A DNA stretch of 64,000 bases from Lachnospiraceae bacterium (lineage in GTDB: Bacteria; Bacillota; Clostridia; Lachnospirales; Lachnospiraceae), in the NCBI GenBank assembly GCA_015057835.1, contig SVDL01000001.1, positions 60,745 to 124,744 of the forward strand, written 5' to 3'. The translations under genes were made by a program, and so were the position numbers. Within the stretch, counting starts at the first letter, position 1, and each line of letters opens with the position of its first letter. The notes beneath the pieces were generated by a model, which did no database searches, was not told the DNA's origin, and saw only the letters and a program-made list of their open reading frames with translations. Shown piece after piece: positions 58,796-64,000 of this stretch.

Positions 58796-59689
58796 CTAAA
58801 CTCCCAGAAACTCCCGCAGCTCCCCGAGCCTGCGCAGCGCCTCCGCCCGTCCGGTCTGATAGACTCTCTCAAGTTCTTCCGGATCCTTCTCCGTCCGGCT
58901 GATCCCGAGTGCCTGCGGCGGCCGGATGACAAATGCTCTCCCTTCCGTCTCCCGCAGATTGATCTCTTTCATCTGATTGTTATAGATGATGTGCCGCTCG
59001 GACATCGTCTTCACGACCGCCGGATATTTTCTCAGGGCGGCGCGGAATAAGGGCATGGCTGCGCTTTTCTTTTTCCGGTACCCCTTCGGCTGGGTGAGAA
59101 TAATCACGTTTTTCGTGTATCCGAGGTTCTCCATAAAGCGATAAGGCACGGAATCGGCGATCCCTCCGTCGAGGAGCTGAAATCCGTCTGTCTCTACGAT
59201 TTCGGAGACGAGCGGCATGGAGGCGGACGCCTGCATCCACCGGAGATCTTTCTCCCCGCCGTCCGTGCACAGATAAAACACCGCTTTGCCGGTGTTGATA
59301 TCCGTCGCCCCGACATAGAATTTCATCGGATTCTCTTCAAATGTTTTCCGGTCAAACACATCCAGTTCATTGGGCAGTTCCCGGTAGCAGAAATCTTCTC
59401 CGTACAGATTGCCGGTCCTGATCAGTGATCTCAGGCTGCAGTACCGCGGATCCCGGCTGTATTTTTTGTTGTACCGGATCGGTCTTCCGATCTGTTTCGA
59501 TTTGATATTGCACCCGAAGACCGCACCGGCGGAAATGCCCGCTGCCGCCTCAAAATCGATGCCGTTTTCCATAAATACGTCAATGACGCCGCAGGTAAAC
59601 ATCCCGCGCATCGCCCCGCCTTCCATGATCAGGGCGGTTTTTTCCGTTCCTTTATCCATGATCGGCTCCTTACTGCTCATCTCTGACAT
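58796..59689 (-). CDS. Patatin-like phospholipase family protein
   Basis: 297 aa; ALIMEGGAMRGMFTCGVIDVF, AAGISAGAVFG (GxSxG), LLDGGIADSVP (DGG). Confidence 0.93.
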   Translation of the reverse strand: MSEMSSKEPIMDKGTEKTALIMEGGAMRGMFTCGVIDVFMENGIDFEAAAGISAGAVFGCNIKSKQIGRPIRYNKKYSRDPRYCSLRSLIRTGNLYGEDFCYRELPNELDVFDRKTFEENPMKFYVGATDINTGKAVFYLCTDGGEKDLRWMQASASMPLVSEIVETDGFQLLDGGIADSVPYRFMENLGYTKNVIILTQPKGYRKKKSAAMPLFRAALRKYPAVVKTMSERHIIYNNQMKEINLRETEGRAFVIRPPQALGISRTEKDPEELERVYQTGRAEALRRLGELREFLGV

Positions 59690-60891
59690 CCGCTCACCCC
59701 GTACCCGCTCGTAAGCCGCAGGGCAGTCTCCGGGTCATCCGGATCCATGCCGATTATCTGGCGGATCTTCTCCATCCTGTACCGCAGAGTATTGCGGTGG
59801 ATATGGAGATAATTCGCGGCGCGGTTGAGATCGTTTCTCTCGTAGAGATAGCCGAACAGGGTCTCTTTATAATCCGTACCGAATTCACGGTCATGCTGCG
59901 CAAGAATCTTCAGTTCATCCGGGATCAGGTTTTCTTCCGACAGAGATGTTTTTGCCTGTCGGAAGATGATCGCGGGATAGTAATCCCGGAAATAATATAC
60001 GATTTCATCCGGGTCGGACGCCATTCCGGCCTGCAGCGCGGTCTCCGCCTGCTCGATATACTTTGCCCTCTCACTGATTTCCGTAAAGCGTCCGCTGAGA
60101 CCTGCATGAAACTGGTAGTCCGTCAGCACCGCCCGCATCCGCTGGCGGATGTATCCCATAGACGCCTCGTTTCTGTTTTCCATCAGGATATACAGCCTGT
60201 TCTCCCTAAACTGGTAAATAATATTGGGATAAATAGAGCGGATCCGCCCCCGGAGAAAGTCCTGCATAGAGTCATTTTCCTCATAGATCCCGATGACGGC
60301 GATCTGATACTCCGGGGAGATATCCACATAGGGGCGATATTTCACCGGGTCCAGCGGTTCTGAAAACTCTTCCGGATTAAAAAACCTTCTGGCAAATACC
60401 TGGCGGACCGGATTTCTCATGTTTTTTTTCTGATAATCCGATGTCTGCAGGAAAATGCCGAAAAGACTGCACACCATTGTATTAAGACGGCAGGCTTCTT
60501 CCTTCTTCTCTATATCCATAAACAGGAGACTGATGAACCCTTCCAGTTCTTTATTGACGTAAACAGGTCCGCAGCTCTGGGGATAATCCCTTGAGACTCC
60601 CCAGTCCACATAGATGGCCGTGCTCGAATTGGCAATGGATTCCAGATACCCCGCCTTAATATACTGATCTGTGATCGTTTCCGTACGCGCTGCGCCGTAT
60701 TGTGCGATATCTTCCCAATAGGGATCCTCAAAAGAGCCTCCGTTTGCAAATGCCAGCAGCTTGAACGCTTCATCTACGATAATGATCGGTATCTGAAAGC
60801 ACTTATAAAACAGCTTCGCAAAAGAATTCGGATCTGTCCCTTCCGCAATGCTCCTGATCGCCTTTTCATAGTATTCGGCATATTCCATCAT
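59677..60891 (-). CDS. PucR/CdaR-family transcriptional regulator
   Basis: 404 aa; C-terminal NDLNRAANYLHIHRNTLRYRMEKIRQIIGMDPDDPETALRLTSGY PucR-type HTH. Confidence 0.88.
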   Translation of the reverse strand: MMEYAEYYEKAIRSIAEGTDPNSFAKLFYKCFQIPIIIVDEAFKLLAFANGGSFEDPYWEDIAQYGAARTETITDQYIKAGYLESIANSSTAIYVDWGVSRDYPQSCGPVYVNKELEGFISLLFMDIEKKEEACRLNTMVCSLFGIFLQTSDYQKKNMRNPVRQVFARRFFNPEEFSEPLDPVKYRPYVDISPEYQIAVIGIYEENDSMQDFLRGRIRSIYPNIIYQFRENRLYILMENRNEASMGYIRQRMRAVLTDYQFHAGLSGRFTEISERAKYIEQAETALQAGMASDPDEIVYYFRDYYPAIIFRQAKTSLSEENLIPDELKILAQHDREFGTDYKETLFGYLYERNDLNRAANYLHIHRNTLRYRMEKIRQIIGMDPDDPETALRLTSGYGVSGCQR

Positions 60892-60949: not shown

Positions 60950-60977
60950 ATTATACGGTATTTGTCAAATTTGACAA
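60950..60977 (-). promoter_or_regulatory. Promoter of PucR-type gene overlapped by a 16-bp palindrome
   Basis: Minus strand TTGTCA-N16-TATAAT; perfect palindrome TTGTCAAATTTGACAA at 60962-60977. Confidence 0.6.
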
Positions 60978-61007
60978 TCATATTTTTTCTAATAGTTATT
61001 CATGACA

Positions 61008-61036
61008 TTGCCTGTCAAATGTACGAATGATAGAAT
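61008..61036 (+). promoter_or_regulatory. Candidate promoter of intergenic RNA
   Basis: TTGCCT-N17-TAGAAT with extended -10 TGa; no coding region follows on this strand. Confidence 0.5.
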
Positions 61037-61042
61037 TATGGT

Positions 61043-61264
61043 AAGAATTCAAAGCGGTCGGAAAAAGATTATCGGATCGGCATGAAACGTTATCCCGGAT
61101 GAGACCGCAATGCGAATTCATTTGATCCAGGGAATCAACGGGACATATCTCCTGCTGTTTCGCAACTTCATAGGCGCCGTCGGTTTTCCGGCGGCGTTCT
61201 CTTATGTCCGGATCAAATGAAAGACCTCAGGAAAAGTCATTCCCCTGAGGTCTTCATTTTCTTT
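61043..61264 (+). ncRNA. Candidate structured non-coding RNA (family unknown)
   Basis: Perfect helices 61117-61128/61210-61221 (TTCATTTGATCC/GGATCAAATGAA), 61141-61147/61203-61209 (GGACATA/TATGTCC), 61175-61183/61188-61196 (CGCCGTCGG-TTTT-CCGGCGGCG, one wobble), 61054-61059/61103-61108 (GCGGTC/GACCGC); terminator 61221-61254 then cattttcttt. Confidence 0.5.
61221..61254. terminator. Terminator (also usable by minus-strand ABC permease gene)
   Basis: AAGACCTCAGG / CCTGAGGTCTT 11-bp arms. Confidence 0.8.
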
Positions 61265-61314: not shown

Positions 61315-62565
61315 TTACTCCCGCCGCAGGGCATCGATCGGATTGAGGTTCGCCGCCTTGATGGACGGCAGCAGCCCGAATACGATTCCGATGACCATGG
61401 AAAATCCCACGCCGAGGAAGATCGCCGGAACAGAGATCGCCACAGGCGTCTCCGACATTCGCGCTATGACATAAGCGAGTACGATTCCCGCGATCACCCC
61501 GAGGATCCCTCCGATGCTGGTCAGAAGAGCGGATTCCGTGAGGAACTGGCCCAGGATCTTGCGCTTCGGGGCACCGAGCGCCTTTTTAAGGCCGATCTCA
61601 CTGGTTCTTTCCGTGACGGAGACAAGCATGATATTCATGACGCCGATTCCGCCTACCAGCAGTGCGATGGACGCGACCCAGATCAGCAGGTTATTGGTGC
61701 TCTGGGACAGTTCCTGCTTGTTTCTCGCTTTTTCAAGAAGGTCTTCTGCCTTATAGGACAGTTCCTCCGTCCTTCCTGTGATGCAGCGGGCCATGACGCC
61801 CTCGACCTCCTTGCCGACGTTGCTCATGTCCTCTGTTTCCCGGGCCCGGGCGACGCAGTTTTTCGGCTCGTCGAAGTTGTAAATAATGGACCATGCCGCA
61901 TCCGGCATAAGAACCGCTCCGTACTGTTCCTGATTATACGTGTAATAATCCTGGATCGAATTGATCACCGGCTCAAAGTTTTTGGATTTCTTGTAGAGTC
62001 CGACGCACATAAACGGTTCACCGCGAATCTCGATCGTTCCGCCCACGGCTCCGCCATCCGGGAACAGGCTGGTCGCAGCCGCCTCATCGAGCAGGACCAC
62101 TTTGTGGATCCTGTCGTAATCCGCCTGTACAAAGGGACGCCCGCTGTAAATGACATAGCCGCAGGTATTCAGATAATGCAGATCAACACCGCGGATGCTT
62201 CCGCCATTCATCGATTCTTTTCCCTGCGTCACGCCGTCCGCGTAGCTTCTCGAATAATAGAAAGAGGCGTCGCTCACATCGTCGAAAGCGCGGATCTCTT
62301 CCATCATGTCATCCGTCACCGGCATGACGCCTTCCGGCGCTCCCATGTCCATATAGTAGTCAGACTCGCCCTGTCTCAGGGAAACTGTCACGTTGTTATT
62401 ACCCGCGCCGATCAGGTTCTGCATGATCTGTTCATTTGTCCCCTTGATCGTCGAGACGATCGCGATGATGGCGGCTATGCCGATAATGACGCCCAGCATC
62501 GTGAGGAACGACCGCATTTTGTGCGACCAGATCCCGCGGAATGAAAATCTCAGGTTCTCAAGCAT
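61315..62565 (-). CDS. MacB-like ABC transporter permease (FtsX domain)
   Basis: 416 aa; LRFSFRGIWSHKMRSFLTMLGVIIGIAAIIAIVSTIKGTNEQI..., GGIGVMNIMLVSVTERTSEIGLKKALGAPKRKILGQFLTESALLTSIGGILG. Confidence 0.93.
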   Translation of the reverse strand: MLENLRFSFRGIWSHKMRSFLTMLGVIIGIAAIIAIVSTIKGTNEQIMQNLIGAGNNNVTVSLRQGESDYYMDMGAPEGVMPVTDDMMEEIRAFDDVSDASFYYSRSYADGVTQGKESMNGGSIRGVDLHYLNTCGYVIYSGRPFVQADYDRIHKVVLLDEAAATSLFPDGGAVGGTIEIRGEPFMCVGLYKKSKNFEPVINSIQDYYTYNQEQYGAVLMPDAAWSIIYNFDEPKNCVARARETEDMSNVGKEVEGVMARCITGRTEELSYKAEDLLEKARNKQELSQSTNNLLIWVASIALLVGGIGVMNIMLVSVTERTSEIGLKKALGAPKRKILGQFLTESALLTSIGGILGVIAGIVLAYVIARMSETPVAISVPAIFLGVGFSMVIGIVFGLLPSIKAANLNPIDALRRE

Positions 62566-62654: not shown

Positions 62655-64000
62655 TTACATGCCATACAGCTCGTCCGGCGAGCCGTGACGTGTCTTTGCG
62701 CCTTCCTTGACTCCCTTCCCGTACGGGAATGCGATCCAGTCCGAGCGGCTGACGCCGGAAATGATCAGGTATCCTTCGCCGTTCAGCTTGCCGACTTTGA
62801 TCTCCTGTTTGACCAGTTTTCCGTCCGCGTCTTCTTTGAAAACGTACTTTTTATTGTTTTCTTCACGGATAAATGCTTTCCAGAGATAGAAGTCGCTGTC
62901 CTCTTCCTCTTCGTAGAATTCCCCTTCTTCGCCGGTCATCATACCGTCTTCGGTCATGCCTTCTTCCCCGGCCATCATATCCTCTTCGGTCACGCCTTCT
63001 TCGCCGGCCATCATGTCCTCTTCGGTCATGCCCTCTTCACCGGCCATCATGTCCTCTTCGGTCATGCCCTCTTCGCCGGCCATCATATCCTCTTCGGTCA
63101 TGCCCTCTTCGCCGGCCATCATGCCGCCGTCTTCCATGCCGCTTCCGCCCTTCATAACGGAGACCTGCACCCAGGAATTGTTCGGCAGCTGTGCCGATTC
63201 ATCGAGGATCTGCGCCGTAAACGGATAATAGGTGACGGTGCTTTCTCCCCATCCGAACATGCCGCTGTTATCCGGGTAGGGCGAGATCTCTTTAATGACC
63301 GCCTGATAACTCATGCCGGTCTCCCAGGACATGACCATGACCGGATCTCCCTCATGAATTTCATCGAGAAGCAGTTCCGACAGACCGCACCGGACGTACT
63401 GTCCGCCGCTGCCGGTCACGGAAATGAATGCCGATCCGTCCGCCATCGGGTTTTCCGGATCGCCGACGTGTTTCACCACGCCGTCCATCTTGGCCTTCAC
63501 TTCGCCCTGCTCGTCCGCGATCTTCGCGTCTTTGAGCCGCAGTTCCGCCTCTCTGAGGTCCAGCTGATAATCCCGCAGCGTATCTTCCGCGTCTTTTCTC
63601 GCCTGCGCAAGTTCTTCCTTCGAATACTGCGCGTTCGGGGAAATGAGTCCGACCGAAGACAGATCATACCCGTTCGAACCGCCGTCTCCGCCTCCGCCGA
63701 AGGCCACTTTCGTGAACTTCGCGCCGTCGGTAATGGATCCGCTCGGTCCCGCGAGAACGGTCGTCTGTGCAAACCGTCCGCTGACCTTCACAAAACTGCC
63801 GGAATTTCCGGTCGCAGCGGCATTTACAGGATTGCCGCTGTTATTATTGTCATCGCCATTAGTTGCAGGCGGGATGCTGGGCGTTGGTGTGCCTGTCGGA
63901 TCCGGCGTGGGCGTCGGTGTCTCCGTCGGTTCTGTTGTCGGGGTCGGCGTATCCGTCGGTTCCGTTGTCGGTGTCGGCGTATCTGTCGGTTCTGCTGTTG
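62655..64000 (-). CDS. HlyD/MacA-like efflux adaptor, N-terminus beyond window
   Basis: Minus frame is open from 62655 through 64000; upstream of the track's GTG at 63791 it reads ...TAEPTDTPTPTTEPTDTPTPTTEPTETPTPTPDPTGTPTPSIPPATNGDDNNNSGNPVNAAATGNSGSFVKVSGRF...; biotinyl-lipoyl-like GEVKAKMDGVVKHVGDPENPMADGSAFISV. Confidence 0.8.
   Translation of the reverse strand, partial: TAEPTDTPTPTTEPTDTPTPTTEPTETPTPTPDPTGTPTPSIPPATNGDDNNNSGNPVNAAATGNSGSFVKVSGRFAQTTVLAGPSGSITDGAKFTKVAFGGGGDGGSNGYDLSSVGLISPNAQYSKEELAQARKDAEDTLRDYQLDLREAELRLKDAKIADEQGEVKAKMDGVVKHVGDPENPMADGSAFISVTGSGGQYVRCGLSELLLDEIHEGDPVMVMSWETGMSYQAVIKEISPYPDNSGMFGWGESTVTYYPFTAQILDESAQLPNNSWVQVSVMKGGSGMEDGGMMAGEEGMTEEDMMAGEEGMTEEDMMAGEEGMTEEDMMAGEEGVTEEDMMAGEEGMTEDGMMTGEEGEFYEEEEDSDFYLWKAFIREENNKKYVFKEDADGKLVKQEIKVGKLNGEGYLIISGVSRSDWIAFPYGKGVKEGAKTRHGSPDELYGM
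62935..63126 (-). repeat. In-frame 36-bp coding tandem repeat (12-aa unit GEEGMTEEDMMA)
   Basis: MMAGEEGMTEED repeated about five times with few substitutions in the adaptor protein. Confidence 0.9.

Follow-up and report, generated by a model that had tools for sequence, protein, structure and literature searches.

The analysed stretch of DNA (64,000 nucleotides of a Lachnospiraceae genome; hereafter the window, to which coordinates refer unless another locus is named) carries, close to its end, an intergenic region between a gene for a PucR-type regulator (59677-60891, minus strand) and one for a MacB-like permease (61315-62565, minus strand). The product of the former, which has orthologues in other species, matches Pfam HTH_30 (3.5e-17) and GGDEF_2 (3.5e-8), i.e. 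it ends in a PucR-type C-terminal HTH, and the latter carries MacB_PCD and FtsX. Immediately downstream of the PucR-type gene lies a gene for a patatin-like protein with DUF6363 (58796-59689, minus strand), and the gene order MATE-patatin-PucR is kept in the related species UBA1251 (assembly G039). Beside macB, a minus-strand gene (62655-63998) encodes a protein that has a tandem MAGEEGMTEEDM repeat as well as a segment rich in Pro and Thr, resembles a membrane-fusion-type partner and gives no Pfam match. Into the intergenic region the preliminary description had placed an orphan structured RNA (61043-61264, plus strand) equipped with a promoter and a terminator of its own, and so convergent with macB, which is the next gene on its 3' side; no plus-strand gene follows it in the window.

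The promoter described there (61008-61036, plus strand) is indeed present, as a sigma-70-like sequence with a weak -35 (TTGCCT), a 17-nt spacer and an extended -10 (TG-A-TAGAAT), from which transcription is predicted to start at ~61043. What had been overlooked is an operator-like element, GTTATTCATGACATTG, directly ahead of it (60995-61010, plus strand), which is common to the PucR orthologues. Close orthologues of the regulator were found in just three other species, all of them Lachnospiraceae MAGs, namely UBA1251 (67% identity), RUG11252 (65%) and RGIG2359 (assembly G003; 59%), and GTYAT-NN-ATGACATTG occurs upstream of all four PucR genes, with one mismatch in G039. In all four species the distance from ATGAC to the -10 of the divergent promoter is exactly 24 nt, and in the alignment of operator and promoter 21 of the 44 columns are invariant, compared to at most 8 in shuffles (n = 20,000). 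This is good evidence, at the level of sequence, for a genuine plus-strand promoter and for its control by the PucR-type protein or some co-inherited factor; the same conservation indicates that the putative RNA has a promoter of its own. By inspection, a second element (TTTGACA/TATGACA) lies ~30-40 nt further upstream in the window, G039 and G003. In addition, the TTGTCAAATTTGACAA palindrome (60962-60977), which might be a second operator, overlaps the presumed -35 of a promoter-like site on the minus strand (60977-60950) that would serve the PucR gene itself. Other close operator matches elsewhere in the genome, among those viewed in a whole-genome search, lack a promoter context. Most studied PucR-type regulators are activators, and GabR of C. 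glutamicum, which is of this type, activates a divergently oriented operon through two inverted-repeat sites (PMC7652997).

Downstream of this promoter, a 231-nt region folds with a z of -4.4 on the plus strand, and none of 200 shuffles is equally stable. The minus strand folds equally well (z -4.6), so that it is the conserved promoter, and not the folding, which favours the plus strand. The most pronounced part is the segment 61117-61221 (105 nt), which reaches a z of -7.3 versus shuffles, a value that none of 800 equal-length segments from both strands of the window attains. It is bounded by the 12-bp helix of the preliminary description (61117-61128/61210-61221), an inverted repeat that is 100% complementary and pairs with a probability of 0.999. 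Inside it, a 7-bp helix had been proposed between 61141-61147 and 61203-61209; the repeat itself (GGACATA/TATGTCC) is 100% complementary, but as a helix it has a pair probability of only 0.002, and enforcing it costs 4.1 kcal/mol. In its place, a hairpin at 61132-61161 (H1; probability 0.979), with two 1x1 mismatches (GAA-U-CA-A-CGGGA / UCCUG-C-UG-U-UUC), dominates the ensemble. This is followed by a mostly unpaired linker, CGCAACUUCA (61161-61170), and by a terminator-like hairpin (H2; 61173-61198), within which the previously noted 9-bp hairpin with its UUUU loop is found, in sequence as well as in the folds. An alternative 7-bp pairing, CGGGACA/UGUUUCG (chance level 0.034 on the ungapped alignment), was set aside in favour of H1, which both the folds and the gapped alignment prefer; also dropped, after inspection, was a possible pseudoknot of GGGA with the hairpin loop, which is out of register between the two species.

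The GC-rich terminator that had been described corresponds to a hairpin at 61221-61254 (an inverted repeat) with a T-rich tail up to 61264. Since H2 is likewise followed by a T-rich tail, the sequence offers two intrinsic terminators to a plus-strand transcript. The final hairpin, 51 nt from the end of macB, is probably a bidirectional terminator, common to the RNA and macB. The 5' part (61043-61116) fared differently: both GAATTC copies that were said to flank a domain closed by GCGGTC/GACCGC are present, but the structure is at chance level (z -0.2) and the domain is absent from G039, the only homologue, where this part is not conserved.

The remainder of the element is what G039 shares. Both species have AUCCA.GG.A.CAACGGGA, UCCYGCUG and CGCAACUUCA.AGGCRCCG, the linker being identical, and when a covariance model is derived from only the window sequence and its predicted structure, it recovers the G039 copy with a score of 50.3 bits (E 1.7e-12). 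Independent minimum-energy folds of the two sequences give the same mismatch-bearing H1 and the same terminator-like H2, whose G039 counterpart is a 10-bp hairpin followed by CUUCUUU. The conserved parts are the 61132-61161 hairpin, the linker and the 61173-61198 hairpin; for the 12-bp closing helix, G039 offers a weak counterpart at best. Covariation in homologues, which had been put forward as a check on the helices, gives a mixed answer. Two pairs have changed on both sides (one each in H1 and H2), four changes are one-sided and compatible, and no pair is broken where both species have letters; the covariation values are, however, matched by 53-80 of 500 shuffles (about 10-16%), for two homologues only and an alignment whose third row was merely a minus-strand self-match. 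The pair-preserving changes support a conserved structure, short of proof with two homologues.

Part of this conservation could in principle be coding, as the window has an open frame for a small hydrophobic peptide (36 codons, 61110-61220), whose ATG is preceded by GGATGAG at a distance of 8 nt. In G039, however, the frame runs into a stop after a shared ING-like part and has no matching start, the substitutions show no third-position preference (by our own reading of the alignment), and the peptide has no Pfam match, which makes it very unlikely that a peptide is what the region encodes.

Beyond G039 the element seems to be narrowly distributed. The preliminary description had not recognised the RNA as tmRNA, 6S, SRP, RNase P or a known riboswitch, and Rfam 15 gives no match at the gathering threshold in this region (the best sub-threshold score being 19 bits against a cutoff of 60), nor for the G039 and G003 copies, and scores at permissive thresholds are at chance level. 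The window's sole Rfam match is a malK-I RNA (RF03069; 29929-30097, minus strand, 124 bits). Neither model R1, run on 42 genomes of the same genus and 397 of the family, nor model R2, run on 392 of the order, revealed a further copy, many of the searched clade genomes being incomplete; the other matches of these models that were inspected are terminators or hairpins without the core motif. A DNA search of 98 relatives returned a single 22-nt match, located in G057 where two coding genes adjoin and attributed to chance, a loose pattern scan of viral contigs gave 99 matches, approximately the chance expectation by our own estimate, and no copy was found in plasmids. Terminator hairpins are common, and the weak model matches in other genomes are themselves terminators or chance hairpins, from which it might be argued that the window merely has chance helices between ordinary convergent terminators. 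Set against the core kept in G039, the z of -7.3 relative to 800 segments and the promoter conservation in four species, that explanation is hardly credible.

The arrangement in G039 bears on the question of what the element belongs to. The contig with PucR and the RNA stops just past the H2 terminator, ending in GTTATAGGACAAAACGCGTT. The macB orthologue sits on a contig that breaks off ~125 nt after this gene with the identical 20-mer, of which the assembly has no other copies (C51 15959-15978 and C100 6530-6549). Judging from these ends, G039 probably keeps the order PucR-RNA-macB with a repeat in between, across which the two contigs would join. A dispersed intergenic repeat of the type ~GTTATNGGACAAAACGCGTTGGTA has five near-exact occurrences in the window genome (sites in its assembly, G000, include C69 90912-90982, C60 904, C63 617 and C3 3080) and is also present at the two contig ends in G039. 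The other relatives with macB orthologues have a different sequence after macB and no such element, which means that the RNA goes with PucR and not with macB. This also weighs on the reading that assigns the structure to the minus-strand macB mRNA, as its 3' untranslated region and terminator, with the plus-strand promoter serving otherwise or little. The equally good folding of the minus strand and the short distance from the end of macB to the final hairpin would both fit, but the occurrence of the core with PucR, its absence downstream of macB orthologues in relatives and a plus-strand promoter conserved at fixed spacing render such an origin quite improbable.

More has to be said about a 5' leader, since the orthologous promoter does not drive the same thing everywhere. 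In RUG11252 the genes that it drives encode a DUF3237 protein and a flavin oxidoreductase (L065 1155-3766, minus strand), which hints that this operon reflects the original role of the regulator, and in RGIG2359 it leads into a structured leader, unrelated to the RNA of the window, with a strong terminator (L066 1700-1850, minus strand), further downstream of which an MBL-fold gene is preceded by a promoter-like sequence of its own. Only in the window and G039 does it drive the structured RNA core. The RNA is consequently not the universal target. It is conceivable that the window element is the remaining leader (an attenuator or an orphan riboswitch-like element) of a PucR-controlled operon which has been lost or moved, leaving leader and terminator behind. 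The operon in RUG11252 and the terminated leader ahead of the MBL-fold gene in RGIG2359 point in this direction, a hairpin followed by a terminator is riboswitch-like as well, and past the terminator the G039 contig has an AAGGAG (a possible ribosome-binding site) immediately before it ends. On the other hand, a same-direction gene is found downstream in neither species, the next gene in the window being convergent and the G039 contig ending where a convergent macB would probably follow. The sequence past the G039 terminator is moreover the dispersed repeat that also ends the macB contig, and this shared 20-mer speaks for a stand-alone RNA and against a leader. The window genome has no DUF3237 gene, which means that the enzyme operon has not merely been relocated there, and none is present in the incomplete G039 assembly either; RUG11252, for its part, has no such RNA leader behind its promoter. 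Taken together, a leftover leader appears rather unlikely.

Following these results, the locus probably contains a genuine structured RNA gene, uncatalogued and of narrow distribution, that is controlled by a PucR-type activator, its transcription being deduced from sequence and conservation. The orphan RNA of the preliminary description is the best-supported reading, because the promoter is kept in four species, the core in one relative, and Rfam is blank; its architecture has to be revised in part (i.e. without the 7-bp helix and the 5' domain). In the form that we favour, with a probability of roughly 60%, it is a stand-alone plus-strand small RNA gene whose promoter is activated by the divergent PucR-type regulator and whose product acts in trans. 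The regulator would bind just upstream of the weak -35 and thereby activate the RNA promoter, giving an RNA of ~155 nt if transcription ends at the 61173-61198 hairpin, or ~215 nt if it reaches the final terminator. This RNA would consist of the conserved mismatch-bearing hairpin, the invariant linker and the terminator-like hairpin, in the window species with the 12-bp helix closing the whole. The linker or the hairpin loop may base-pair with mRNAs, through which the inducer of the PucR-type protein could tune distant genes.

Being invariant and mostly unpaired, the linker is the natural candidate for a seed. Its exact complements in the window genome number nine, one of which is the RNA locus itself, and another adjoins the ribosome-binding site of spoVG, where the complementarity extends to UGAAGUUGCGAA (12 nt). 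By our own estimate, about 0.1 such sites near a start codon are expected by chance. Ahead of spoVG, this site is not present in any of the 15 relatives with a locatable start, which are relatives that do not have the RNA, and the G039 assembly, which is 69% complete, contains no spoVG. As a target, spoVG is accordingly a weak lead only. A more specific version, in which the divergent target of a metabolite-responsive PucR-type activator in a small Lachnospiraceae clade is a regulatory RNA that relays the signal via CGCAACUUCA to distant mRNAs, perhaps spoVG, is possible but tentative.

If the favoured reading is true, it adds a new regulatory RNA to the poorly studied Lachnospiraceae of gut and rumen, and a small RNA would be what a local activator targets, from a promoter which in a relative serves an enzyme operon. 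It is this position, beside a local regulator and in the place of a relative's enzyme operon, that is unusual, and no PucR-linked small RNA was found in the literature. Since the RNA is short and its operator explicit, the idea is readily testable.

Among the Firmicutes, RoxS and FsrA of B. subtilis are regulated small RNAs that act in trans. Like RNAs of this type, the candidate is short and intergenic, is furnished with a promoter and a terminator of its own, presumably receives its input from a transcription factor and has an unpaired stretch that could serve as a seed, but it shows no relationship to them in sequence or in Rfam, and it is known from the genomes of two species only. With the candidate RNAs of comparative-genomics screens (PMC2864571, PMC11109978), it shares being structured, intergenic and without an assigned function, and being judged by conservation and pair changes, although far fewer members leave its covariation support thin. 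The arrangement of the locus, finally, is much like that of C. glutamicum GabR (PMC7652997), with a regulator divergent from its presumed target, an inverted-repeat operator and a possible second upstream site, except that the target here would be a non-coding RNA, where RUG11252 has an enzyme operon.
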